42,922 nt of DNA from a virus. Position numbers and translations under genes: made by a program. Of this stretch, positions 28,496 through 42,715 are shown in pieces (the stretch's first letter is position 1; each line of letters begins with the position of its first letter). The notes under the pieces are model-generated. The model had not been told where the DNA came from, made no database searches, and saw only the letters and a program-made list of their open reading frames with translations. The stretch covers positions 1-42,922 of IMG/VR virus record IMGVR_UViG_3300013132_000091. One strand, written 5' to 3'.

Positions 28496-31400
28496 ATGGA
28501 CCTCAACGAAGCACGCAAGCGACTCCCTGAACTGGCCGGACTGAGCGACGAGTCCGCGCTGAACGTCATCCATCAGGTCTACTACCCGGCCATGGAAAAG
28601 GCGGCGCTGGCCGAGCGCCTGGGCTACAAGGCCCCGCCGCCGCCCACGCCCGACCGCTCCATGGTGCGCGCAGCCGGGGACATCGGACTTTCGCTGGGCC
28701 AGGGCGCAGCAGGCGCGTTCAAGGCGCTGTCGGACGTTGCCGGCGCTGACAACGTGGTGTCGCAGAAGCTGGGCGATATGTCCGAGTTTCTGGGCAACCA
28801 GAAGAGCGAGCAGTCCAAGGCCACGCTCAAGGCCAGCCAGGAGCGCGTGAAAGCCGCCGAGGAATCGGGCAGCACATGGGAAGAGGCCAAGGCTTACATG
28901 GAGATGCTGCTGGACCAGCCCGGCGAGTTTCTGGCGCAGGGTGTGGGTTCGTTCGCCACGCTGGGCCTTGGCAAGCTGGCTCAGGGCGTGAAGCTCGCCA
29001 GCGCAGCCAAAGCGGCCGGCATGAGCAAGCAGGCTTTCTTGGCATCCAAGGCGGGGCAAGAGGCCATCAAGGAAGCGGCCAAGTTCGGCTTCAAGGCCAA
29101 CGTGGGCATTGGCTCCGCGATGGGTGTGGGTGCCGTGAAGGGCTCGCAGTACGAGCAGACCTACAGCAACGCCATCGCCCAAGGCATGCCGGAAGATCAG
29201 GCGCAGGCACTGGCGACCGAGGCGCAGCGTTACGGCGGCAGCGGGACCATGCAGCAACTGCTGGGCGGCGGGCTGGGTGCGCTGGCGGCATCGACTGGCC
29301 CGATTGAACGGCTGGTGATGGGACAGGGCGCGCGCAATGCCGCGACCGGCACCATGGCCGCGATGGGAAAAGGCTTCTTGGTCGAAGGCAGCACGGAAGG
29401 CGCGCAGGGCGGTCAAGAGCGGTTCGCAGGGAACACCGCCGCCATTGATGCCGGCGTGCTGGACCCGTCCAAGCGCATGCAGGGCGTTGTCGGTCAGGGC
29501 CTCATGGAAGGCACGATTGGCGGCGTCATTGGCGCAGCGGCCGGGCCGTTCGAGGCGCAAGCGCCGATCAACCTGCCGAACCAGGCGCGCGAACCCCTGC
29601 CGCAACCCCAGCCAGCACCGCCCGTGGAGCCGGCCGGGCCGATGACGAGGGCGCTGAATGTTGGTGCCCAAAAAGCAGCGCCATTGCCGCCGCCCGTATT
29701 GGATGAGTCGGTCCTCCGCGACAACGGCGTGTACCCTCCGCCAGTCCTTGACGATGCAGCCATCCAGTCAGGAATTTTGAGCGGCGATGAACTGCGCCAG
29801 TTTGATGCGAAGCAGAGCAATGCAGCCACGCAGGCACAGCCGGCGCCCAATGCCGAGACAGCCAACGAAGATCCTGTAGACGAGCAATTCACACAACCCA
29901 TTGTGAGCGCGGGTTTCCAAGAGGCACTGCGCCAAGCTGAAGCGGATGGCATCGACACAGAGGCTGTGTTGGAGCGGGCCGCGATGAACACGCAAACCGG
30001 ATCGGATGAGGACTATGAGCGCGAGGCATTGGCGCTGATTGCTCAGGCGCGGATTTGGGATGCGAAACAGCCAAATGATGGTTCTCCCGCAGCTCCCGCA
30101 GGGAACGCAGGGAACGCAGGGAATGAAAGCCCGCAACCCCTTGCGCAACCCCTTGCGCAACCCCTTGCGACCGACATCCTGAACCCAAAGGGATTTCCAT
30201 TCAAAACCAGAAAGACCGCCGAACTTGCCGCCAAGAAGACGCCGGGCGACATCGTGCCGGTGGAAGGTGGTTTTGTTGTCCGACCACAGGAGAGCACCCT
30301 TGCAAACACCGCCGCCCAAGAAGTCCCCGAGGCAGACGCAGCACCAGTGCAAGCCGATCAGCCCGCAGAAGCCGTGTCCTTTGCCGACGCCGCAGATGAA
30401 GCTGGCGGCTATGCTGTACGTGGAAGCGATGAACAGGGGGCCGTGGAGGCACTGAGCGATGTCCAAAACGCACCGCAACCAACCACAGCAGCAGGAGTCC
30501 CGACAAAAACCCGACAAAAACCCGACATTGGCGCCACGGCAGTTGAAGCGCAAGCGCCAGCGCGAGGCGATGGAGCCGCCGCCGCTGGAGTACCCGACGC
30601 GGGAGCCGGTGCCGGTGTACGGGCGGATGGGGTAGGAAAAGAACAATTCGACCCACAAGGTACTAAGCCTGGTACACCTGAATACGAATACGCATTTGAA
30701 AAATGGGTCTCCGGTCAGTCGGACAAAAGATTGGAGATCAATCGCACTCGGCAGCGTCAAGAAAACACGGCGGCAGTCCAAAAGCGCAACGGCTGGCGAT
30801 CAAAGATCCGCAAGTGGTTCTTGGGAGCCAAGGACGGAGACACGATTACTGACACTGGAACAGGTCAGAACTACAAAGTTATTGAGAAGAAGCGCAAGGA
30901 CGGAACAAAGACCAAGACGCTGGTAGCCACAGATGAGAACGGAGCCCCGCTTGATGACGGCCGAGCTGCAACAGGAATCGCACAAGTCGGGGATCGGGTT
31001 GAAGGATTGGATGACGGTGGTATTGACGATGACACCGGATCTGCAACTCCAGAAACTGCCGGCCAGTCGCTTGCATCAAGCCTTGGGAAACAATTGGAAG
31101 ATGGCGATGCCAAGACAGCATCTCCTGCAGCCACTGACGTTCAAGCCGATGGGGTGAAGAAGCCGCCATTCGCCAAGAAGGAGGATGTCGAGCACCTGTT
31201 CGGCATCGACCAGAAGCGGAATGCCGCACTGGACCGCATCGCAAAGGGGACGGCCTACTTCGGAACCAAGGAAAAGGCGGCCGATTTTGTGGCCAAGTCC
31301 GGCATCAAGGACACGCACGAGGTTGTGCAGGCCAAGCCCGGCCGCTTTGAGATCCGCGCCAAGGCTGGAAGCGGTATGCAAACCGCAGATGCGCCGGCAG

Positions 31401-34400
31401 AGCAGGCCGCGCCGTCTGCGGCGCCGGAAAGCACTGTCAAGGTTCCGCCCGACATCGACGCCGCCATCGCTGGCCAGATGCAGAAGCAGAAAAACCGTGT
31501 CGCGCGCTTGAAGCGCGAAGCGGAGCAGCCAGGCATGACGCTGGACGAAAAGCGCCAGGCGCAGACCAAGGTGCTGGCCGCTGAAACCACGCTGCGCAAG
31601 ATGCGGACCTCCGTGTTCGACGCCGAGGATGCCGCTATCAAGGCACTGGAAGCCGGCGATGTGGCTGCATTCGACGCCCATGCCGACCTGTTCCCTGATG
31701 TCGTGGCTGCGCTTGAAAAATCCATCGGACAGAAGCCTGCCGAGTCCACGAAAGGCCCAGGCGAGCAACTGGCCGAACTCAATGCCGAGCTGGAGCGCCA
31801 GGGGCCGGTGCAGAACGCCAATACCCGCGCCAAACGCGACCAGATCCGCCGCGAGATTGCCGAGCGGGATTTCCCGGAGATCCTGAAAGCGGTTGACGGC
31901 GACATCGATACTGCCGAAGACCTGAACCGGGCATTCCAGTACGCCGGGGACGAGCCAAGGGCCAAGACGGTCGAGCGGATCTTGAAGAAGCGCGGCATCA
32001 CGGCCGAGTATCAGAAGGTGTGGACCGGCCGGCTGCTGGCCCAAGACGGTCAACAGGACGATACCCTGGAAGACCCGGAGATGGCGGCCTACGAGAATGG
32101 CCTGACGGCGAATACGCGGGCGCAAGACCGTGAAAAACTTGCCCCAGGCACCAGGGTTAACGGCTCCGCCGAGCGCGCAGCAGCCGACCGCCTGCAGCAG
32201 ATCTACAACCAGATGGATGGCATCAACCGGCGCAACACCCGCGAGGGCAATGCGAAGGAAACCATCAGAACCGTGATTGAAGAACTGCGCAAGCCGCGCA
32301 CCGTCAGCAGCGTGGTCCCCATGCTGGACGGAGCCGCCAACGGCCTGGACCGGAACTATGGTGCGCTGGCCGACGTGGTGCGCGAAGTTGCCGACAGCCT
32401 GAACGGCGAAGCAGCGCCAGCAAAGCCGACGCCGGCCAAGCCTGCCGCCACCGCCAACACTATCTTCACAGAGGACGCCGCCGCCGCCGCGCGCGCCTTG
32501 CTCAAGAAGAAACTCAGTGGCGGCACGCTCAACAGCGGAATTGACCCCGAGATCCTGCAAGCCGGCATCACGCTGGCCGGCTACCACATCGAGAAGGGCG
32601 CCCGCACGTTTGCCGCCTACGCCAAGGCCATGGTGGGAGACCTGGGCGACAGCGTGAAGCCGTACCTCAAGAGTTGGTACGCCGCCGTGGCGCTGGACCC
32701 GCGCGCCACCGGATTTTCTGGCGACATGACCCCGCTTGGGGATGTCATGGCCGCCGATGTGGACAAACTGGCCGCTGAGGCTGATACTGTTGAGGACCAA
32801 ACCCGTGACGACAATGCAACACGCCCACTGGATCAGCCAGGCCAAGGAGCACTGGAAGGAGCACCGGCCGCAGATGTTCAAGGAACTGCAGAAGCAGGGC
32901 CTGCTGGACGCGCGCCTGCAGGAAGCCGCGGAGGCGACCAGCCAGGCGATGCAGGAGCTGATGGCACAGGGGTTCGCGCACCACGAGGCATGGGAAGCGA
33001 CCCGGCAGCAGTACCTGTTCCTGCCGGAAGAACCCGGAGCCAGCGAGGAAGCGCCGACAAGCGACGGGCTGCGCCTGATGCGAGAGATGAACGAGGGCCT
33101 TCGCTATTTGGGGATGACGGAGCAGGAGATAGCCGCGGCGAAACTGGACGAGTAGAGCCGCCCGCCTTCCAGCCGACCGACTTCACCATTGAAGAAGACT
33201 TCGCGCTGGGTGAGGGTGGCCAGAAGGCCAAGTACCGCGCCAACGTCGATGCCATCCGCCTGCTGCAGAAACTCGAAGCCGAGCAGCGCCATGCTACACC
33301 CGACGAACAGAAGGTGCTGGCCAAGTACGTCGGCTGGGGTGGCATTGCCCAGGCATTCGACGCCGAGCACAAGGATTGGGGCCGCGAGTACGCCGAGCTG
33401 CGCGAGCTTCTGAGCGACGAGGAATACAACACCGCGCGCCGCTCTACCAGATACGCGCACTACACCAGCCGCCCGATCATCCAGGGCATGTACGACGCCA
33501 TGAAGCGCTTTGGCTTCACGGGCGGCAAGATGCTGGAGCCAGGCGCCGGGGTGGGCAACTTCATGGGCCTGATGCCCGCCGACCTTCGCAGCGGTTCGCG
33601 CCTGACCGGCGTGGAGCGCGAGCGCATCGCGGCCGGCATCGCGCGCCACTTGTACCCGAACCAGAACATGCAACTGCAGGACTTCACGCAGTTCAACGCT
33701 CAGGACGGGTACTTTGATGCGGTGATCGGCAACCCGCCGTTTGCCGCCGATGGCCTGGTGGATCAGTCGGGCCGCAAGCACCTGTCCGGCATGGCGGTGC
33801 ATGACTACTTCTTTGCAAAGTCCGTGGACATGCTGCGAGACGGTGGCGTGTTCGCCGCCGTGGTGTCCAACGGGTTCATGGACAAGGCCGGCGACCGGGC
33901 GCGCAAGTACATCGGCGAGCGCACCAAGCTGCTGGGTGCCATCCGCCTGCCCAACAACGCCTTCGCCAAGAACGCCAACACCGAAGTGACGACCGACATC
34001 GTGTTCCTGCAGAAGCTGCCGGAATCCGAGTGGGGCAGCAAGGCGGCCAAGGCCGACTTGAAGCGCTGGCTGGACGTGACGACCATCCCTGACCCAAAGG
34101 GTGGCGATCCCATCAAGATCAACCAGTATTTTGCGGACAACCCGCAGATGATGCTGGGCGAGTACGGGCGCTTTGGCACCATGTACGGCCCGGACCAGCC
34201 CGCCCTGGTGGCGCGGCCCGGCCAGGACACCGCCGCCCTGCTGCGCGCCGCCATCGAGCGCCTGCCGGCCGGTGTGTACCAGCACGCCGCTGTGATCGGC
34301 ACCAACAAGGCCACCCGCGACGTGATCGAGGCGCTGCGCGACAAGAGCGTGCAGGAGGGCGGTTTCTACGTGGACGGCGGCAAGCTGTACCAGCGCATGC

Positions 34401-37400
34401 AGGACGTGGCCGGCGAGTCGTCGGCCCGCCTGCTGACGCCCGAGACGCAGTGGACCGAGAAAACCACGCTGGGCGAGTCTCGCTACGAGCGACTGGTGCA
34501 GTTGGCCGGAATGCGCCGCACGCTGCGCGATCTGCTGGCCGCTGAACTGGCCGACGACAAGGCCATGGAAGGGCTGCGCAAGAGCCTGAATGAGCAGTAC
34601 GACGCCTACGCCGCCAAGCACGGCCTTATCAACGACCCGAGCACCGCCCAGGTGTTTGACGACGACCCGGATTTCCCGCTGCTGGCCGCACTGGAGATGA
34701 ACTACGCCCGCGGCATGGGGCCTGCAGCCGCCAAGGCGGCCGGCATCAAGCCCTACAAGTCCAAGGCCGACAAAGCGCCGATCTTCGCGCGCCGCGTGAT
34801 CGAGAAGCGCCAGGCGGTGCAGAAGGCCGAGACGCCAGAGGACGCGCTGAACGTGTCCATTGCCGAGCGCGGCCGGATCGACGCCGGCTACATCGGCCAG
34901 TTGCTGGGCCGCCCGGCCGACGAGGTGCTGGAGGAACTGACCAAGGGCGACAAGCCGGCGCTTTTTGTGGACCCGGTGACGGGCGAGCATGTGTTGCGTG
35001 ACGCCTACCTGTCCGGCAACGTGCGCAAGAAGCTGCAGCAGGCGGAAATGGCCGGCATGGATCGCAACGTGCGCGCTCTGATGGAGGTTCAGCCCGAGGA
35101 CGTGGGCGCACACGAGATTTCCGCGCGCATTGGCTCGCCCTGGGTGCCAACCGAGGTCTATCAGGACTTCATCAAGGATCTGCTTGGCGATGGCACCAAG
35201 GCCACGGTGGCGTATGTGCCCACCAACAGCGCATTCTTCATCAGCGTCAAGGCCGGTTCGGACACCGCCAACAACCTGACCTACGGCACGAGCAAGATGG
35301 ACGCCGAGGCGATCCTGAACGCGCTGCTGAACAACCGCACGGTCAAGGTCACGTACACCGACTCCGATGGCAAGACCCATCTGGACAAGGAAGGAACCGA
35401 CGCCGCCATGGAGAAGGCAGCCGACATTCGGGCGAAGTTCCAAGACTGGCTCTTTGCGGATGCCGAGCGGGCCGAGGTGCTGGTGCGCTCCTACAACGAC
35501 ACCAACAACAACTACGTGACGCGGGTGTACGACGGCGCGCGCATGGAGTTCCCCGGAAAGGTGCCTGACTCCATCATCAAGTTCCGCCGCCACCAGCGCA
35601 ACGCGATTGCGCGGATCGTACAGGACCGCACGGCGCTGCTGGACCATGTGGTCGGCGCCGGCAAGACCTTCACGGTGATCTCAGGCGCGATGGAACTCAA
35701 GCGCACCGGCCTGGCCAAGAAGCCGCTGATCGTGGTCCCGAACCACCTTGTCAAGCAGTGGGCGGCCGACTTCTACCGCCTGTATCCTGGCGCCAACATC
35801 CTGACGGCCACCAAAAAGGACTTTGCGCGCGAGAACCGCCGCCGCTTCCTGGCCAAGATCGCAACCGGCGATTGGGATGCCGTCATCATGGCGCATTCCT
35901 CGTTCGGATTCATCCAGCCTGACCCGGATTTTGAAGTCGAGTTCAACGAGAAGCAGGTGGCCCATATCAAGGCCGCCATCGAGAAGGTCGATGCTTCGGA
36001 CGGCGACGAGAAGGGCAAGAAGCGCACCGTCAAGCAGTTGGAGGGCCTGGTGGAGCGCCTGGAGAACCGCATCAAGTCGCTGCGCGACAAGGCGGTGGAC
36101 AACCTGCTGGACTTCAAACAGGTCGGCGTGGACCAGTTGTTTGTGGACGAGGCGCACTTGTTCAAAAACCTGATGTTCAGCACCAAGATGCAGAACGTGC
36201 AGGGCCTGGGCGACAGCAAGGGATCGCAGCGCGCCTACGATATGTACGTCAAGGTCAACCAGCTCTACGCCCAGAACGGCCGCGGCCAGGGCGTGGTGTT
36301 TGCCACGGGTACGCCCGTGTCGAACACGCTGGCCGAGATGTACCACATGATGCGTTACCTGATGCCGGCCGCCATGGACGAGGCAGGCTTCCAGAGTTTC
36401 GACGCCTGGGCCAACACCTTTGCATCGGTCGAGCAGGTGTGGATGCAGAAACCATCCGGTGACGGCTACAAGGCCAGCGACCGCATGGGCACATTCAGCA
36501 ACGTCCACGAGTTGCTCAAGATGTTCGATCAGGTGTCGGACACCGTGACGATGGAGGACATCAAAACGGCCTATGCCGAAGAAAATGGCGGCAAGGCATT
36601 CCCGCTGCCCAAGCTCAAGAACGACCGCCGCACGCCGGTTTCGCTGGTGAAGTCCGAGGCCCAGAACGCCTACATGGACGAGATCGCCGAGCGCGCCAAG
36701 AAGCTGGAGGCCAAGAAAGGCCCGCCGCAGAAGGGTGAAGACAACTTCCTGACCATCATGTCGGACGCCCGCAAGGCCGCCATGGACGTGCGCCTTGTGC
36801 GCGAGGACATCAACGACCGCGAGCCTGGCGCCCGCATCGACCGATCCACCGACGAGGTGGTGAGCCGCTACAAGCAGTACGACAGCGTGAAGGGCACGCA
36901 GTTGGTTTTCTCCGACCTGGGAACGCCGCTCAAGAGCGCCAAGAAGGAACTCAAGGAGTACGAGGAACTGAAAGCCCGCATCGACGCCGGCAACGATGCC
37001 GATGTGCAGGCCGACGCCGCTCTGGGCGACGAAGCCGCACAGGCCAAGATCGAGGATGCCGAGGCCGCCCAGGAAGAACTGGACGCCAAGGGCCGCGACT
37101 GGCTGGGTGCCATCAAGGCCGCGCTGCGCGGTTTCTCAGTGTACGACGACTTCAAGGCTGCGCTGATCGAGAAGGGCATCCCGGAAAACGAGATCGCATT
37201 CATCCACGACTTCAACACCGACGACCAGAAGGCCGCGCTGTTCCGCAAGGTCAACGCCGGCCAGATCCGCGTGCTGCTGGGTTCGACCCAGAAGATGGGC
37301 GCCGGCACGAACGTGCAGGAGCGTCTGGTGGCGCTGCACCATCTGGATGTGCCATGGAAGCCCAGCGACATCGAGCAGCGCGAGGGGCGCATTGTTCGCC

Positions 37401-40400
37401 AGGGCAACCGCCTGGCCGACACAATCCCCGGTTTCGAGGTCGAGATTCTGGCCTACGTGACCCAGGACACGCTGGATATGCGGATGTGGCAGACCCAAGA
37501 GGTCAAGTTGAAGATGGTCAACCAGCTTCGCACCCGCCAGATCAGCCGCGAGATCGAAAACCCGTTCGAGGAAGCCGAGATGTCGGCCGGTGAGATGCAG
37601 GCCGCGGCCACCGGCAACATGGACTTGCTGCGCGAGATCCAGCTCCGCTCCGACCTAAAAAAGCTGGAGCAGCGCAAGCGGTCCTTCGACGCCCAGCGCA
37701 ACGAACTGGCGTCGCGCCGCAAGCGCGCCACGGACAGCCTGCGCCGCCTGCCCGAGCAGATCGCGGATCTGGAGGTGCTGGACAAGGGCGCGCGCGACTA
37801 CTTCACCGGCCTGGAGGATCGATCGTTCAAGGCCACCATCAACGGCGACACCTACACCAGCCGGACAGAAGCCGGCGCCAAGCTGCGCGAACTGGCTGCA
37901 GCGCATGAATCCGCCCTGGAAGCCCGCCGCAAGGCTGGCGACGATGCAGGTAAGGCCGCGGCAGACGCCCGCGAAGACTTGTCGCCCGCCGAGCGCACTG
38001 GCATTGCCATGGACGCCAAGGACGCCTACCTGAAATCGAACCCGCTGCCGAAGATGGCCGTGGAGTTCAACGGCAAAACCTACGGGTCCAAGTCGGCGCT
38101 GGCCGACGCCATGACAGAGTTTGCCGGCGACTCGGAGCCCATCGAGTGGAGTTTCGACGGGCAAGAGTTCATCCGCCGCAAGGACATCGCCGCCGCCATT
38201 GAAGCGGTTGTTGCCGAGGCAATCGACACCGACACCGAGGCCAGCATCGGCACCATCGGCGGCTTCCAGGTCACGATTGAAGGCCAGCGCGACAAGTTTG
38301 GCTCTTTCGTGGACATGGTGGTCACGCACAAGGGCAAGACCTACGACAGCACCGCGCGGATCAACGGCGACGACAAGAAGCAGGCCGTGGACATCGTGGT
38401 TCGCGCGGCCGAGCGCATGGTGGCTTCGCTTCCCGACAAGCTGCAGTTTGCCAAGTACGACCTGGCGCGCGCCAAGAAGGCCATGCAGGAGCTGGAGAAG
38501 ACCAGCATGCCGGACGCCTGGCCGGACATGGGCAAGCTGGAGAAGGCCCGCACCGAGCACAAGGAAGTGCTCAAGCGCCTAGCCGGCGAGGGCAAGAAGG
38601 AAGGCGAGGAAGGTGGCGCCGACACGACGCTCTCCATTGACGACAGCACCGGCCCGGCCGATACTGCCGACTATGGACCAGCAACCCAAGCCCACCGAGA
38701 CGCAGCCGCCCGACTCGCTGAATCCTTCGCAGACCGAATCGAAGGCGGTGGATCTCACGCTGATCTGCTGGACGCAGTTGCTCCGGGAGACGGAAAGCGC
38801 GGACAAGCCGCCACTGCTGTTGCCAATATCGCCCGACGACTTTTCCGACGACAAGTTGTTTTCGTGAAGTTCAAGGGCACACCCCTGTTCAACGGGGTGG
38901 TGTCCAAGTCGGTCCCCGGCGTCATCTTCCTGAACATCGACAGCCAGAAGCCGCTGTTGTCCGTGCTCGGCCACGAGCTGCTGCACGAGATGGCCAAGAG
39001 CCACCCGACCATGTACGCGAACCTCTCGCGCCGCCTGGACGACCTCATCAAGAACGAAACCGAGTACGCGGTTCGGACCTACAACGCCTACAAGAAGGCC
39101 GGCATTTCCACCAAGGGCCTAGACACCCGCGAGGAACTGGAGGCCGACATCGTGGGCGACAACTTCATGGACGCCGGTTTCTGGCAGGCCATGGGGGAGA
39201 ACCAGCCGGGCCTGTTCAAGCGCATCGTCAACTTCGTGACGGCGTGGCTGGACAACCTGAGCCAGAAGATCACCGACTACCGGCCGTTTGGAACCGACGA
39301 GTTCCTGACCGACATTGCTGCTGCACGCGATGCGGTGGCCGGCGCCATGCGCGAGTTCAGCGGCGCCGAAGCTGGAGCAGTGGCCGACCCGACTGATGGG
39401 GATGTGAAGCTCTCAGCCGCCCGTGGTACAAACAACGCCATGCCGGTGTTCAACAACGCATCCGGCGACTTCAACCCTGATCTTGACAAGTTCTGGATCA
39501 AGAAAGGGCGTGAAGAAATCCGTGGCGAGGGCATGTCGGATGCGGACTACAACACCGCCGTCGCTGAGTACGCCAATGCATGGCGCATCAATGATCTGTT
39601 GGTTGAACAACTCGGATGGCGCCGTCGCGGGTCAAGCAATGTCTCGTCCTCTACGTACTTTGAAAAAACCATCGAACTTGATGAGCAGAATGAGAATGGT
39701 GAAGACACACTGACCTACGAGGTTCGCGTGACTGACCACGACGACTATCACCCGGCAAGCGGTGGCATATCGAAGCGGTTTCAGGTCAATTTCCGATCAG
39801 TTCAAAGTCAATGGTCTGACGTTGACATCACGCCAGACATGAGCACAAAGGAGGCCATGTCATTGCTGCGCGGCACTCTGGAGACTGACCAATCCGCGCC
39901 GGTATCTGGCGGCGCGAAGCTCTCAGCCGCAGAGAAGCAAGACCAGACCCAGACGCCCAACAACGCCGACATCCGGTTCAGCGTGGTAGACGACATCAAG
40001 CGGGCCTATGCCGACCGCGTGCCCGATGCCGTGCGCGACCGCATCGAAGACCTGACCAGCTCGCAACGCGGATTCAACCGCTGGTGGCACAGCACCGTGG
40101 GCACCCAGCTCCACAAGGCCAAGGTGAACAAGGAGTTCGGTCGGGTCTATTACGCCGTGCAGGACTTCATGAAGGACGTGAGCCGCATGGCGACCTTGGC
40201 GGCCGACCAGGCGCCGGACCTGCTGCCGCATATTGACAGCCTGGCCGACATCAAGAAGGTGGCGCCGCAGATGGGCATTGCCGGGCACCGCCAGCGCAAG
40301 GCCGACATGAAGGCGGCGAGCGATGCGCTGTTCGATGGCACGCTGCGCTACACCCGTGACGCCTACGGCGAACCGGTGGAGGCCCAGAACGAAGCCGATG

Positions 40401-42715
40401 CCGGCCTTGTTTGGACCGACGCCGAACTCAAGGCGCGCGGCCTGAACGACACGGCGATCAAGCTGTACCGGCAGGCGCGCAGCGCCATCAACCAGTCGCT
40501 GGACAACCTGATGGCGGCCGACGTGTACCGCATGCTGACCGCCGTGACACCGGACGCCCTGGCGAACACGCCGGCCGAGCATGCCGCGATCATGGCCAAG
40601 GTGCGCAAGGCCGCGGCATCGGACAGTCCTCTGCAGGTGCTGCAGATTGCCGGCCGCGCGCTGGACCAGCAGGCCGACGTGCTGCGCAAGCAACTGGCGA
40701 CCTTGAAGAAGCAGATGGACGAGGACTATGCCGATGGCATGACATCGGCCTACACGCTGGCACAGGATGCGCTCAAGAAGATCGAGAGCATCAAGGAGCG
40801 CATGGACGAGAAGTACGAGCGGGTGCGACAGCTCAAGGCGGAGGGCTATGCGCCGCTGATGCGCTTTGGCCGGTACGCGGTGGACGTGCTGGATGCGGAC
40901 GGGAACCGGGCTTTCTTCGGGCTGTACGAGTCGCAGTACGAAGCCAACCGCGCCGCGCGCCGGTTTGCCGAGCAGGGTTTGCGGGTGAGCCAGAGCGTGA
41001 AGTCGGCCAAGGAGTTCGAGATGCTCAAGGGCATCAGCCCCGAGACGGCCATGCTGTTCGCGGATCTGCTGGGGGTGGAGAAGGACGCGGCCATGCAGAA
41101 GTGGCTGCAGAACGCCCTGGCCGAACAGTCGGCGCTCAAGCGGCACATCCGCCGCAAGGGCATCGCCGGGTTTGACGATGACGCCGGCCGGGTGGTGGCG
41201 GCCTTCCTGACCTCCAACAGCCGGGCCGCATCGCGCGCCTTGCACGGCTTGCGCATTCAGGAGAGCGTGGAGAACGTGCGGGCCGGTGATGTGAAGGACG
41301 AGGCGATCAAGCTGGCCGACTACGTGAACAACCCGGTGGAAGAGGCGCAGGCGGTGCGCTCGCTGCTGTTCGTCAACTACATCGGCGGCTCGGTGGCGTC
41401 GGCGCTGGTGAACTTGACCCAGACGGTGGTGCAGACCTTCCCGTATCTGGCGCAGTACGGCGGTGCGCGCAAGGGCGCCAGCCGGGTGACGGCGGCCATG
41501 AAGCTGGCAATGGGCAAGATCGAGGACGCCGAGCTGGCCGAGGCGGTCAAGCGCGCCGAGGCCGACGGCGTCATCAAGCCGCAGGAAGTGTTCCAGCTCC
41601 AGGCCGAGGCCAGCCGCACGCTGGGCTCAGACATCCGGGTGCGCGCGGCGCTGTCGCTGTGGGGTTCGTTCTTCCAGATGGCCGAGCAGTTCAACCGCCG
41701 CGTGGCCTTCATTGCGGCCTACCAGACGGCCAAGCAGGAGGGCATTCGCAACCCGTTCGCCTTTGCCGAGAATGCGGTGGACGAGACGCAGGGCGTGTTC
41801 AACAAGGGCAACCGGCCCGATTGGGCGCGCGGCGCGGTTGGCGCGACAATTTTCACCTTCCGTACGTTCACCATCCAGTACGTCGAGTTCTTGAAGCGCC
41901 TGCCGCCCAAGGAGCGCGCGCTGGCGCTGGGTGTTCTGGTGCTGCTGGCCGGTTTCCGTGGCTTGCCGTTTGCCGAGGACGCCGAGGACATCATCGACAC
42001 CGCCGCGCAGGCGATGGGCTACAACTTCACGACCAAGGCGCAGATGGACCGGTTCTTGGTGTCCACCCTGGGCCAGCCGTTCGCGGACTTCCTGCAGCGC
42101 GGCGCCAGCGGCACCGGCATGCTGCCGTTCGATGTGTCGCAGCGCCTGGGCATGGCCGACCTGCTGCCGGCGACCGGGGTGCTCAAGGCCAGCGAAACCC
42201 GCAAGGATGAGCAGATCCTTGAAGTGCTTGGTGTTACCGGTGGATTCATTCGTGACGCGCTCAAGGGAGAGGTCAGGCCGATTGCCTTGCGCAACGCTGC
42301 CAAGGGCATCGAGATGTACGACCGCGGCATCTACACCGACACCCGTGGCCGCAAGGTGATGGATGTCGGCCCGGTGGATGCGGCGATGAAGGCCATCGGC
42401 CTGCAGCCGGCCGGTGTTGCCGCCGAGTCGCGCAAGGCTGGGTCGGTGTACGAGATGCGCGCGCTGTTCACCAAGGTCAAGAGCGAGATTTCCGAGCAGA
42501 TGGCGCTGGGCCAGTTCGAGAACGACCAGGCCAAGATCCAGAAGGCGCGCGACCGGCTGGCCGACTGGAACGCGAAGAACCCGGATGCTCAGATCCGCCT
42601 CAACGGCCAGGCTATCCGCCGCCGCGTGACGGAAATGCGCAAGGACCGCTCGGAGCGCCTGTTGAAGACCACCCCGAAGGAGTTGCGTGCTCAGGCGCGG
42701 GAGGTGCTGGAGTGA
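28496..42715 (+). CDS. Giant polyvalent virion protein (DarB-like MTase-helicase, zincin, PLxRFG, LPD38-like)
   Basis: 4,739 residues, one third of the window. Order: Gly-rich amphipathic N-terminus (1-355); linkers with a short PFKTRKTAELAAKK unit (~565) and a related unit ~920-955; conserved LPP segment TLNSGIDPEILQAGITLAGY (~1335-1355). An N6-adenine methyltransferase follows, with motif I EPGAGVGNF (~1680) and NPPF (1746-1749). The SNF2-like helicase has Walker A GAGKT (2387-2391), DEAH (2551-2554), ATGTPVSN and QREGRIVRQG (from 2961). Then come NGxxYxS repeats, a zincin HELLH (3493-3497) with EELEAD, PLMRFG (4120-4125) and an LPD38-like C-terminus. Such proteins are packaged and ejected with DNA and protect it from restriction (DarB of P1). 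No Shine-Dalgarno precedes ATG 28496. Confidence 0.9.
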   Translation: MDLNEARKRLPELAGLSDESALNVIHQVYYPAMEKAALAERLGYKAPPPPTPDRSMVRAAGDIGLSLGQGAAGAFKALSDVAGADNVVSQKLGDMSEFLGNQKSEQSKATLKASQERVKAAEESGSTWEEAKAYMEMLLDQPGEFLAQGVGSFATLGLGKLAQGVKLASAAKAAGMSKQAFLASKAGQEAIKEAAKFGFKANVGIGSAMGVGAVKGSQYEQTYSNAIAQGMPEDQAQALATEAQRYGGSGTMQQLLGGGLGALAASTGPIERLVMGQGARNAATGTMAAMGKGFLVEGSTEGAQGGQERFAGNTAAIDAGVLDPSKRMQGVVGQGLMEGTIGGVIGAAAGPFEAQAPINLPNQAREPLPQPQPAPPVEPAGPMTRALNVGAQKAAPLPPPVLDESVLRDNGVYPPPVLDDAAIQSGILSGDELRQFDAKQSNAATQAQPAPNAETANEDPVDEQFTQPIVSAGFQEALRQAEADGIDTEAVLERAAMNTQTGSDEDYEREALALIAQARIWDAKQPNDGSPAAPAGNAGNAGNESPQPLAQPLAQPLATDILNPKGFPFKTRKTAELAAKKTPGDIVPVEGGFVVRPQESTLANTAAQEVPEADAAPVQADQPAEAVSFADAADEAGGYAVRGSDEQGAVEALSDVQNAPQPTTAAGVPTKTRQKPDIGATAVEAQAPARGDGAAAAGVPDAGAGAGVRADGVGKEQFDPQGTKPGTPEYEYAFEKWVSGQSDKRLEINRTRQRQENTAAVQKRNGWRSKIRKWFLGAKDGDTITDTGTGQNYKVIEKKRKDGTKTKTLVATDENGAPLDDGRAATGIAQVGDRVEGLDDGGIDDDTGSATPETAGQSLASSLGKQLEDGDAKTASPAATDVQADGVKKPPFAKKEDVEHLFGIDQKRNAALDRIAKGTAYFGTKEKAADFVAKSGIKDTHEVVQAKPGRFEIRAKAGSGMQTADAPAEQAAPSAAPESTVKVPPDIDAAIAGQMQKQKNRVARLKREAEQPGMTLDEKRQAQTKVLAAETTLRKMRTSVFDAEDAAIKALEAGDVAAFDAHADLFPDVVAALEKSIGQKPAESTKGPGEQLAELNAELERQGPVQNANTRAKRDQIRREIAERDFPEILKAVDGDIDTAEDLNRAFQYAGDEPRAKTVERILKKRGITAEYQKVWTGRLLAQDGQQDDTLEDPEMAAYENGLTANTRAQDREKLAPGTRVNGSAERAAADRLQQIYNQMDGINRRNTREGNAKETIRTVIEELRKPRTVSSVVPMLDGAANGLDRNYGALADVVREVADSLNGEAAPAKPTPAKPAATANTIFTEDAAAAARALLKKKLSGGTLNSGIDPEILQAGITLAGYHIEKGARTFAAYAKAMVGDLGDSVKPYLKSWYAAVALDPRATGFSGDMTPLGDVMAADVDKLAAEADTVEDQTRDDNATRPLDQPGQGALEGAPAADVQGTAEAGPAGRAPAGSRGGDQPGDAGADGTGVRAPRGMGSDPAAVPVPAGRTRSQRGSADKRRAAPDARDERGPSLFGDDGAGDSRGETGRVEPPAFQPTDFTIEEDFALGEGGQKAKYRANVDAIRLLQKLEAEQRHATPDEQKVLAKYVGWGGIAQAFDAEHKDWGREYAELRELLSDEEYNTARRSTRYAHYTSRPIIQGMYDAMKRFGFTGGKMLEPGAGVGNFMGLMPADLRSGSRLTGVERERIAAGIARHLYPNQNMQLQDFTQFNAQDGYFDAVIGNPPFAADGLVDQSGRKHLSGMAVHDYFFAKSVDMLRDGGVFAAVVSNGFMDKAGDRARKYIGERTKLLGAIRLPNNAFAKNANTEVTTDIVFLQKLPESEWGSKAAKADLKRWLDVTTIPDPKGGDPIKINQYFADNPQMMLGEYGRFGTMYGPDQPALVARPGQDTAALLRAAIERLPAGVYQHAAVIGTNKATRDVIEALRDKSVQEGGFYVDGGKLYQRMQDVAGESSARLLTPETQWTEKTTLGESRYERLVQLAGMRRTLRDLLAAELADDKAMEGLRKSLNEQYDAYAAKHGLINDPSTAQVFDDDPDFPLLAALEMNYARGMGPAAAKAAGIKPYKSKADKAPIFARRVIEKRQAVQKAETPEDALNVSIAERGRIDAGYIGQLLGRPADEVLEELTKGDKPALFVDPVTGEHVLRDAYLSGNVRKKLQQAEMAGMDRNVRALMEVQPEDVGAHEISARIGSPWVPTEVYQDFIKDLLGDGTKATVAYVPTNSAFFISVKAGSDTANNLTYGTSKMDAEAILNALLNNRTVKVTYTDSDGKTHLDKEGTDAAMEKAADIRAKFQDWLFADAERAEVLVRSYNDTNNNYVTRVYDGARMEFPGKVPDSIIKFRRHQRNAIARIVQDRTALLDHVVGAGKTFTVISGAMELKRTGLAKKPLIVVPNHLVKQWAADFYRLYPGANILTATKKDFARENRRRFLAKIATGDWDAVIMAHSSFGFIQPDPDFEVEFNEKQVAHIKAAIEKVDASDGDEKGKKRTVKQLEGLVERLENRIKSLRDKAVDNLLDFKQVGVDQLFVDEAHLFKNLMFSTKMQNVQGLGDSKGSQRAYDMYVKVNQLYAQNGRGQGVVFATGTPVSNTLAEMYHMMRYLMPAAMDEAGFQSFDAWANTFASVEQVWMQKPSGDGYKASDRMGTFSNVHELLKMFDQVSDTVTMEDIKTAYAEENGGKAFPLPKLKNDRRTPVSLVKSEAQNAYMDEIAERAKKLEAKKGPPQKGEDNFLTIMSDARKAAMDVRLVREDINDREPGARIDRSTDEVVSRYKQYDSVKGTQLVFSDLGTPLKSAKKELKEYEELKARIDAGNDADVQADAALGDEAAQAKIEDAEAAQEELDAKGRDWLGAIKAALRGFSVYDDFKAALIEKGIPENEIAFIHDFNTDDQKAALFRKVNAGQIRVLLGSTQKMGAGTNVQERLVALHHLDVPWKPSDIEQREGRIVRQGNRLADTIPGFEVEILAYVTQDTLDMRMWQTQEVKLKMVNQLRTRQISREIENPFEEAEMSAGEMQAAATGNMDLLREIQLRSDLKKLEQRKRSFDAQRNELASRRKRATDSLRRLPEQIADLEVLDKGARDYFTGLEDRSFKATINGDTYTSRTEAGAKLRELAAAHESALEARRKAGDDAGKAAADAREDLSPAERTGIAMDAKDAYLKSNPLPKMAVEFNGKTYGSKSALADAMTEFAGDSEPIEWSFDGQEFIRRKDIAAAIEAVVAEAIDTDTEASIGTIGGFQVTIEGQRDKFGSFVDMVVTHKGKTYDSTARINGDDKKQAVDIVVRAAERMVASLPDKLQFAKYDLARAKKAMQELEKTSMPDAWPDMGKLEKARTEHKEVLKRLAGEGKKEGEEGGADTTLSIDDSTGPADTADYGPATQAHRDAAARLAESFADRIEGGGSHADLLDAVAPGDGKRGQAATAVANIARRLFRRQVVFVKFKGTPLFNGVVSKSVPGVIFLNIDSQKPLLSVLGHELLHEMAKSHPTMYANLSRRLDDLIKNETEYAVRTYNAYKKAGISTKGLDTREELEADIVGDNFMDAGFWQAMGENQPGLFKRIVNFVTAWLDNLSQKITDYRPFGTDEFLTDIAAARDAVAGAMREFSGAEAGAVADPTDGDVKLSAARGTNNAMPVFNNASGDFNPDLDKFWIKKGREEIRGEGMSDADYNTAVAEYANAWRINDLLVEQLGWRRRGSSNVSSSTYFEKTIELDEQNENGEDTLTYEVRVTDHDDYHPASGGISKRFQVNFRSVQSQWSDVDITPDMSTKEAMSLLRGTLETDQSAPVSGGAKLSAAEKQDQTQTPNNADIRFSVVDDIKRAYADRVPDAVRDRIEDLTSSQRGFNRWWHSTVGTQLHKAKVNKEFGRVYYAVQDFMKDVSRMATLAADQAPDLLPHIDSLADIKKVAPQMGIAGHRQRKADMKAASDALFDGTLRYTRDAYGEPVEAQNEADAGLVWTDAELKARGLNDTAIKLYRQARSAINQSLDNLMAADVYRMLTAVTPDALANTPAEHAAIMAKVRKAAASDSPLQVLQIAGRALDQQADVLRKQLATLKKQMDEDYADGMTSAYTLAQDALKKIESIKERMDEKYERVRQLKAEGYAPLMRFGRYAVDVLDADGNRAFFGLYESQYEANRAARRFAEQGLRVSQSVKSAKEFEMLKGISPETAMLFADLLGVEKDAAMQKWLQNALAEQSALKRHIRRKGIAGFDDDAGRVVAAFLTSNSRAASRALHGLRIQESVENVRAGDVKDEAIKLADYVNNPVEEAQAVRSLLFVNYIGGSVASALVNLTQTVVQTFPYLAQYGGARKGASRVTAAMKLAMGKIEDAELAEAVKRAEADGVIKPQEVFQLQAEASRTLGSDIRVRAALSLWGSFFQMAEQFNRRVAFIAAYQTAKQEGIRNPFAFAENAVDETQGVFNKGNRPDWARGAVGATIFTFRTFTIQYVEFLKRLPPKERALALGVLVLLAGFRGLPFAEDAEDIIDTAAQAMGYNFTTKAQMDRFLVSTLGQPFADFLQRGASGTGMLPFDVSQRLGMADLLPATGVLKASETRKDEQILEVLGVTGGFIRDALKGEVRPIALRNAAKGIEMYDRGIYTDTRGRKVMDVGPVDAAMKAIGLQPAGVAAESRKAGSVYEMRALFTKVKSEISEQMALGQFENDQAKIQKARDRLADWNAKNPDAQIRLNGQAIRRRVTEMRKDRSERLLKTTPKELRAQAREVLE
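30101..30127 (+). repeat. 9-bp tandem repeat in the giant gene
   Basis: GGGAACGCA twice plus a degenerate third copy, encoding a Gly-Asn-Ala run. It keeps frame and lies in an interdomain linker, so slippage would only alter linker length. Confidence 0.7.
30133..30168 (+). repeat. 12-bp tandem repeat in the giant gene
   Basis: Three exact copies of GCAACCCCTTGC encode Pro-Leu-Ala-Gln repeats. It lies five bases after the 9-bp array in the same linker. Copy number is a multiple of three bases per unit, so variation would be in frame. Confidence 0.85.
30300..30455 (+). CDS. Nested small gene A in the +1 frame of the giant
   Basis: 51 residues, TTG start at 30300 with AGGAG seven bases upstream. 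Sequence is basic and Pro-rich, then hydrophobic (PQMKLAAMLYVEAMNRGPWR). From about 30280 to the stop nearly all third positions in this frame are G or C. The giant's own frame gives an Ala/Glu/Asp linker with mixed third positions. This is the signature of the small frame being the older coding sequence. It ends three bases before nested gene B. Function unknown; the start codon is the least certain part. Confidence 0.4.
   Translation: MQTPPPKKSPRQTQHQCKPISPQKPCPLPTPQMKLAAMLYVEAMNRGPWRH
30459..30635 (+). CDS. Nested small gene B in the +1 frame of the giant
   Basis: 58 residues from ATG 30459, with GGAGG nine bases upstream and only three bases after the stop of nested gene A, so translation could be coupled. 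Very basic and Pro/Gln-rich (THRNQPQQQESRQKP, then RQLKRKRQREAMEPPPLEYP). Third positions are about four-fifths G/C in this frame but mixed in the giant's frame, which here gives only a low-complexity Ala/Gly/Asp linker. Short basic proteins like this are common in phages, but no family is recognised. Confidence 0.5.
   Translation: MSKTHRNQPQQQESRQKPDKNPTLAPRQLKRKRQREAMEPPPLEYPTREPVPVYGRMG
30954..31157 (+). CDS. Nested small gene C in the +1 frame of the giant
   Basis: 67 residues from ATG 30954, with GGAG nine bases upstream. Helical with hydrophobic residues spaced as in a small domain (GLKDWMTVVLTMTPDLQLQK, then RLHQALGNNWKMAMPRQHLL). Third positions favour G/C in this frame; in the giant's frame the same DNA gives an acidic Gly/Asp/Thr linker. 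It follows the A/T-richer insert-like segment of the giant. Not recognised. Confidence 0.4.
   Translation: MTAELQQESHKSGIGLKDWMTVVLTMTPDLQLQKLPASRLHQALGNNWKMAMPRQHLLQPLTFKPMG
32805..33155 (+). CDS. Nested gene D in the +1 frame of the giant (phage helical protein)
   Basis: 116 residues, GTG start at 32805 with GAGGA eight bases upstream; ATG 32814 is an alternative. The protein looks like a real folded phage protein: HWISQAKEHWKEHRPQMFKE, then AMQELMAQGFAHHEAWEATR, then QQYLFLPEEP. I recall hypothetical phage proteins with this HWKEHRPxM...EAW...P.EE layout. Third positions are almost all G/C in this frame. The giant's frame here encodes only a Gly/Ala/Arg/Asp-rich disordered linker before the methyltransferase, with many A/T third positions. 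Function unknown. This is the strongest of the nested genes. Confidence 0.7.
   Translation: MTTMQHAHWISQAKEHWKEHRPQMFKELQKQGLLDARLQEAAEATSQAMQELMAQGFAHHEAWEATRQQYLFLPEEPGASEEAPTSDGLRLMREMNEGLRYLGMTEQEIAAAKLDE
38673..38867 (+). CDS. Nested small gene E in the +1 frame of the giant
   Basis: 64 residues from ATG 38673. Pro/Thr/Gln-rich start (DQQPKPTETQPPDSLNPSQT), then an amphipathic part (VDLTLICWTQLLRETES) and an acidic end (LLLPISPDDFSDDKLFS). G/C at third positions switches from the giant's frame to this frame right at the ATG. No good Shine-Dalgarno is seen; GTG 38613 upstream would give 84 residues. It underlies the linker between the helicase part and the zincin. Function unknown. Confidence 0.45.
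   Translation: MDQQPKPTETQPPDSLNPSQTESKAVDLTLICWTQLLRETESADKPPLLLPISPDDFSDDKLFS
39404..39930 (+). repeat. Direct repeat pair flanking a domain cassette in the giant gene
   Basis: G-T/C-GAAGCTCTCAGCCGC occurs at 39404-39420 and 39914-39930, exactly 510 bases (170 codons) apart, both encoding KLSAA in frame. The DNA between is A/T-richer at third positions than both flanks and encodes a compact-looking domain (FWIKKGREEIRGEGMSDADY, then VRVTDHDDYHPASGGISKRF). The layout suggests in-frame insertion of a domain cassette between short repeats. Confidence 0.65.

Follow-up and report, generated by a model that had tools for sequence, protein, structure and literature searches.

A conserved small gene, apparently nested in the +1 frame of giant DarB-like polyvalent phage genes

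Gene D, a small reading frame in a viral stretch of 42,922 nucleotides (IMG/VR record IMGVR_UViG_3300013132_000091, hereafter the window), is very probably a real gene that is translated separately, from an internal start of its own, while lying, in the +1 frame, wholly inside a giant DarB-like polyvalent gene. The initial annotation had put it forward as the best single test of the idea that this region holds nested genes, and the idea found support: comparison of related loci showed, at the level of sequence, that D is conserved as a protein together with its start, its Shine-Dalgarno (SD) sequence and its frame across very diverged phages, and that the D frame is under selection. Internal initiation on the giant mRNA and the order in which the two readings arose are what we infer in addition.

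Gene D and its giant host gene in the window

Upon re-reading the window, we recovered the coordinates of D, its length of 116 residues, its GTG start and the GAGGA motif 8 nt upstream of it as they had been annotated (Table 1), and the spacing of this motif was found to suit the GTG at 32805 better than the ATG at 32814. The claim of a strong third-position bias was borne out as well: counted from the ATG at 32814, GC content by codon position in D was 0.72/0.38/0.86, similar to that of ordinary genes of the window (0.61-0.67/0.41-0.42/0.86-0.88), while the giant ORF frame across the same DNA gave 0.85/0.71/0.38. In a scan of the giant ORF by 60 codons, D was the sole place where an alternative plus-strand frame was more gene-like than the main one. 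The Gly/Ala/Arg/Asp-rich linker, which had been described as the opposite reading, is present, but D and the linker are read from one and the same strand, the linker being in the main frame of the giant ORF.

That the D frame is open carries little meaning on its own. When the synonymous codons of the giant protein were re-drawn, the +1 frame was open over D in 93% of the trials for the window, and across 71 loci it stayed open in a median of 40%; openness of the frame was therefore dropped as evidence for D (P 0.93 under shuffling), and the significance of D, as far as sequences can establish it, stems from its conservation.

The host ORF joins an adenine methyltransferase and an SNF2-type helicase in a single polypeptide, with PF07669, PF02384, PF00176, PF04851 and PF00271 all exceeding their cut-offs, and thereby has the methyltransferase plus SNF2/ResIII helicase architecture of DarB-like/polyvalent proteins such as P1 DarB and Bcep22 gp75 (PMC5512222). 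Ten other alternative-frame ORFs in the window's giant gene were without a match in Pfam or PHROG, and their codon pattern did not resemble that of a gene, so further nested genes in this ORF are unsupported.

Table 1. Features of the window that bear on gene D
Feature	Position	Strand	Remarks
Nested gene D	32805..33155	+	116 aa plus stop TAG; +1 frame relative to the giant ORF; GTG 32805 the likeliest start
Shine-Dalgarno-like GAGGA	32792..32796	+	8 nt 5' of GTG 32805; within the giant ORF coding sequence
Alternative ATG start of D	32814..32816	+	Aligned with the conserved ATG of relatives (MNLxNW...); poor SD spacing in the window
Host gene, giant DarB-like/polyvalent ORF	28496..42715	+	4,739 aa (codons); uninterrupted through D
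Gly/Ala/Arg/Asp-rich linker of the giant protein	32813..33172	+	Same DNA as D; probably overprinted, the younger reading
Adenine-methyltransferase domain (Eco57I/N6_Mtase)	33677..33946	+	Residues 1728-1817 of the giant protein
SNF2/ResIII to Helicase_C domains	35576..37405	+	Residues 2361-2970 of the giant protein

Conservation of the nested frame among relatives

A tblastn search with D matched 21 phage records (about eleven phages) at 36-57% identity, these being phages of Erwinia, Klebsiella, Pseudomonas, Vibrio, Microcystis, Agrobacterium, Ochrobactrum and Sinorhizobium. In 11 annotated phage genomes the homologue occupies the same +1 nested position, altered, apparently by an indel, in PBC5. 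Wherever a record examined annotates the giant gene on the correct strand, D falls into the +1 frame of that CDS and has none of its own, again with the exception of PBC5. The description of D as a type of phage hypothetical protein held in part: the family exists, but gene callers reject full overlaps, and in the phage records examined it is therefore unannotated, other than as the tail of PBC5 orf33. The giant gene of Pseudomonas phage Itty13 (L002:3890-15148) was deposited as three wrong-strand proteins, but D is spanned by an open giant ORF there too.

An alignment-based scan of IMG/VR for D returned 72 loci, some of them phages already counted, whereas a scan of viral contigs with a single D sequence had yielded no confirmed relatives. 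The giant ORF was open through D, and in the same phase, at all IMG/VR loci except PBC5 and L037, while the third frame over D held 2-9 stops per locus. At L037 (7986-8324), the decayed remnant of a prophage, the giant gene is interrupted on either side, but the D ORF is intact. Scanning of bacterial contigs added 18 loci, 15 of them nested (prophage-like) and three stand-alone. A plasmid search with the D consensus found none, an NCBIfam search gave nothing useful, the collections searched contained no close relative of the window, and in phage 8P, which has the giant protein, no D was detected before the methyltransferase. The Bcep22-like phages DC1, CSP3, BcepMigl and JC1 carry a diverged nested ORF of 107-112 aa directly before the methyltransferase, with AAGGAG or AAGGAGG upstream and TnpV as its sole Pfam hint (E 0.029).

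We then assessed initiation signals and selection. The start codon was ATG in 67 of 72 distinct D sequences and GTG in the other five. A suitably spaced SD match of 4 nt or longer preceded 66 of 71 D starts (93%), compared to 17% of the 6,723 out-of-frame ATGs within the same giant ORFs that served as a control, and for matches of at least 5 nt the respective values were 55% and 3.7%. For selection, mismatches between disjoint pairs of related loci were sorted by codon position 1/2/3 of the giant frame, yielding 439/262/239 inside D and 671/438/1997 downstream of it (chi-square, p about 1e-96); over D, the free position shifts from the third position of the giant frame to its first, which is the third position of D. 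Moreover, the D protein outscored the giant-frame peptide in alignment in 99.8% of 2,346 pairs, with a median identity of 46% versus 36%. When the complete giant ORFs of 20 close pairs were scanned by 60 codons, D was the one recurrent inversion common across groups, and the other inverted stretches were confined to particular groups. Selection on D was measured here on relatives and not on the window's own lineage. A mass tblastn of alternative-frame ORFs was dropped in favour of the substitution-phase scan, as conserved regions shadow all frames.

Several further ORFs within giant genes were observed. A second conserved nested ORF of about 60-68 aa (...GLIDPPSPFDTLQxWKDW...LKQARQxIREKS...) lies some 6.0-6.6 kb downstream of D, likewise in the +1 frame, at L039:14508-14690, L049:14619-14822, L047:14127-14306 and about 27 other rhizobial or alphaproteobacterial loci; its substitution phase was inverted in some pairs, and it was not found in the window. 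Another small ORF (WHILSEKGKNLGGPYQREGEADKRLAEVEYFK...), having no Pfam match, lies inside the giant gene at L083:7629-7799, upstream of D. In Pavtok and Stean (L009/L011), weaker phase inversions were seen on both sides of D, upstream of it at 2.2-2.5 kb and downstream at about 6.0-6.2 kb, and these are possible further nested genes.

The recognised class of embedded genes to which D can be compared is that of Rz1 inside Rz, in lambdoid and Bcep22-like phages (PMC9144972, PMC5295617). Like Rz1, D is a small, complete ORF lying wholly inside another gene, on the same strand and in a different frame, with its own conserved start and SD sequence, and in the relatives selection acts on the nested frame. 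It differs from Rz1 in that its product is predicted to be soluble and helical, in that it sits in a giant polyvalent gene and has stand-alone relatives, and in that no phage record examined annotates it as a gene.

Stand-alone relatives, predicted fold and likeness to TnpV

Stand-alone homologues, the search for which had been proposed as a check on D, were found in Corticibacter populi (L087), Variovorax (L085) and Pseudidiomarina (L095). The Corticibacter gene is isolated, encodes 99 aa and has GAAGGAG upstream and no giant ORF, and the gene of Variovorax WS11 likewise lies outside any giant ORF; both could be prophage remnants. In Pseudidiomarina sediminum (L095:7974-8762) the D domain forms the N-terminal part of a 262-aa protein of a chromosomal gene, whose hydrophobic C-terminal part is probably membrane-spanning; the two other frames of this gene are full of stops, and it clearly represents a different gene arrangement. 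Only two of the 399 Corticibacter-family genomes searched were found to carry D, and stand-alone D is therefore rare.

The AlphaFold model of D, built with 45 sequences, consists of four helices with a pLDDT of 96-98. Its best structural match was PG0816 of Porphyromonas gingivalis (2apl; Z 8.2, rmsd 2.1, 67 aligned, 21% identity; Foldseek E 0.18), followed by a next match at Z 4.5, and as helical folds yield chance matches of such order, this likeness between a model and a structure is suggestive only. Unlike with the D model, PG0816 was not among the matches listed in searches with the TnpV model. The one significant match to D in BFVD was fragment 2 of Q8W6J4 (E 3.7e-6), which is taken to be PBC5 orf33. 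Solved structures searched by the D sequence returned just designed helical proteins and chance matches, and the TnpV model had no convincing match in the PDB.

The link to TnpV (PF14198) emerged from scanning giant methyltransferase ORFs without a close D. Five gut-phage contigs (L112-L115 and L118) were found to carry a full-length TnpV (E 1e-24 to 1e-42) in the +1 frame of the giant ORF, an SNF2 gene of an Enterococcus faecalis plasmid (L119) has one nested in the same +1 frame (E 1.5e-18), and so has the giant ORF of another IMG/VR locus (L129); in L116, a contig recorded as Listeria phage, a nested TnpV (29 bits) stands directly before the methyltransferase. The nested TnpVs of the gut phages, L116 and L119 pass the PF14198 cut-off with 29-142 bits, and the other TnpVs fetched were mostly stand-alone. 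The window's D scored 19.9 bits (E 7.5e-4), below the gathering cut-off of 27 bits, covering profile positions 24-82 of 111 and leaving the N-terminal strand region (1-22) unmatched. A weak TnpV match was seen in 8 of 12 D homologues, reaching 26.9 bits in L083 against the cut-off of 27, and profile-profile comparison gave modest support (29.7% probability, E 0.00056). D and TnpV have in common the core motif KEHxPxxYxxLxxxGxLxxxL, at profile positions of about 23-82, and a similar order of helices in their predicted models, whereas the TnpV model has three N-terminal strands and the window's D model is all helix. Since D scores below the cut-off and lacks the N-terminal part, and the profile-profile support is modest, we did not rank it as a member of the family but as a probable distant relative by sequence. 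In elements of the Tn4451/Tn6104 type, TnpV is usually a stand-alone gene beside recombinases, unlike the nested D, and its Xis-like excision role is just postulated (PMC3158075).

Origin and role of the nested gene

On our preferred account, ribosomes would initiate at an internal GTG or ATG with its own SD sequence on the mRNA of the giant gene and produce a small helical protein, while other ribosomes would translate the same DNA in the main frame into the disordered linker that precedes the methyltransferase domain. Of the two readings D would be the older one, part of a gene family that has stand-alone members and is probably distantly related to the TnpV of mobile elements, and the giant gene would later have been extended through it, so that the sequence of the linker would be dictated by D. 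The giant frame is likely the younger of the two, given that D-like genes occur alone and that the linker is of low complexity and set by D codons.

As for function, the location of D tentatively points to a protein that assists the enclosing polyvalent DNA-entry/antirestriction protein, perhaps as a regulator or as a partner in assembly or packaging. This guess is prompted by the presence of the giant protein of phage JC1 in virions and by P1 DarB, which shields incoming DNA, and a partnership of D with the giant protein would account for the retained nesting. About as likely, and with an even chance of being right, is that D is real but has no functional tie to the giant protein and is a passenger, such as a TnpV-like excision or recombination helper or a host-takeover protein, that became caught beneath the linker owing to the compactness of phage genomes; this possibility keeps the claim of a real nested gene and differs from our preferred account in function alone. 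It fits with TnpV relatives often standing beside recombinases in transposons (PMC3158075) and with D occurring alone in chromosomes. However, nested D/TnpV recurs specifically in methyltransferase-helicase polyvalent genes, in phages of several bacterial phyla and in a plasmid, and mostly just ahead of the methyltransferase, which suggests something beyond chance packing, though common descent of the nested module would yield the same pattern equally well.

The remaining explanations dispute the nested gene itself or its mode of expression. It is very unlikely that the giant frame is spurious over D and that an N-terminal protein, D and a methyltransferase-helicase protein are actually made as three separate products. 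It is true that selection over D favours the D frame and that the annotation of PBC5 is split, but the giant frame is open across D everywhere except in PBC5 and L037, despite big indels elsewhere, and JC1 gp69 (4,515 aa) is a virion protein detected by 51 peptides, though the text of that study does not say whether any of them spans D (PMC9144972). The list of JC1 virion proteins published includes gp69 and lacks D.

Slimmer still are the prospects of a programmed +1/-2 frameshift that would let the N-terminal half of the giant protein end in D, as an alternative C-terminus, with PBC5 as the fused form. PBC5 orf33 (2,185 aa) does end with D in frame, a form reflected by PHROG 938, which has 2,185 positions, the length of the orf33 product. 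In PEp14, LASTA, Pavtok, SopranoGao, Stean and VvAW1, among others, a stop in the D frame nevertheless lies 0-5 codons before the conserved ATG, which leaves hardly any room for a frameshift and makes D impossible as a long frameshift extension; the start and SD sequence of D are conserved, stand-alone D genes were found, and PBC5 is best explained by a one-base indel just upstream of D. In this Sinorhizobium phage (orf33, L004:1752-8309) the upstream half is joined in frame to D and is out of phase with its relative L049, and by sequence comparison an indel of one base just before D is the apparent cause of the fusion. The match to PHROG 938, labelled 'endolysin', was rejected as evidence for lysis, having been traced to PBC5 orf33 with D fused in frame.

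Least credible, and already contradicted by the comparative data, is an accidental open frame created by GC-rich codon bias and an Ala/Gly/Arg/Asp-rich linker, which would match the ease with which the window's +1 frame stays open under synonymous shuffling but not the invariant residues, the conserved SD sequence and start, the switch in substitution phase, the stand-alone homologues or the persistence of D in lower-GC relatives whose third frame has many stops.

A precedent for an antirestriction gene hidden in a mobile-element gene is ardD, which lies antisense within tniA of Tn5053 (PMC3533173), on the opposite strand, unlike D; no homology is claimed. A survey of polyvalent proteins (PMC5512222) mentions neither TnpV nor overlapping genes or alternative frames, and we found no mention of nested D/TnpV in the open-access literature, a prior description elsewhere being possible. 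It may be, with as much speaking for it as against, that giant polyvalent methyltransferase/helicase genes in phages and plasmids carry nested +1 accessory genes under disordered linkers, with dual coding locking a conserved helper to the DNA-entry/antirestriction protein; such a reading spans D/TnpV, from Proteobacteria to Bacillota, and, in rhizobial phages, one or more additional nested genes.

To summarize, standard annotation misses a protein that is conserved in phages of several bacterial phyla and whose gene is found, nearly always without an annotation, in dozens of phages that are only distantly related. Among dsDNA phages, D is an example of overprinting that stands out for its clarity, and one whose direction can be argued, the small gene being old and the linker new. 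TnpV, a widespread mobile-element gene, gains a new recurring context inside methyltransferase-helicase genes, and D becomes a candidate component of the DNA-entry/antirestriction machinery of these phages.
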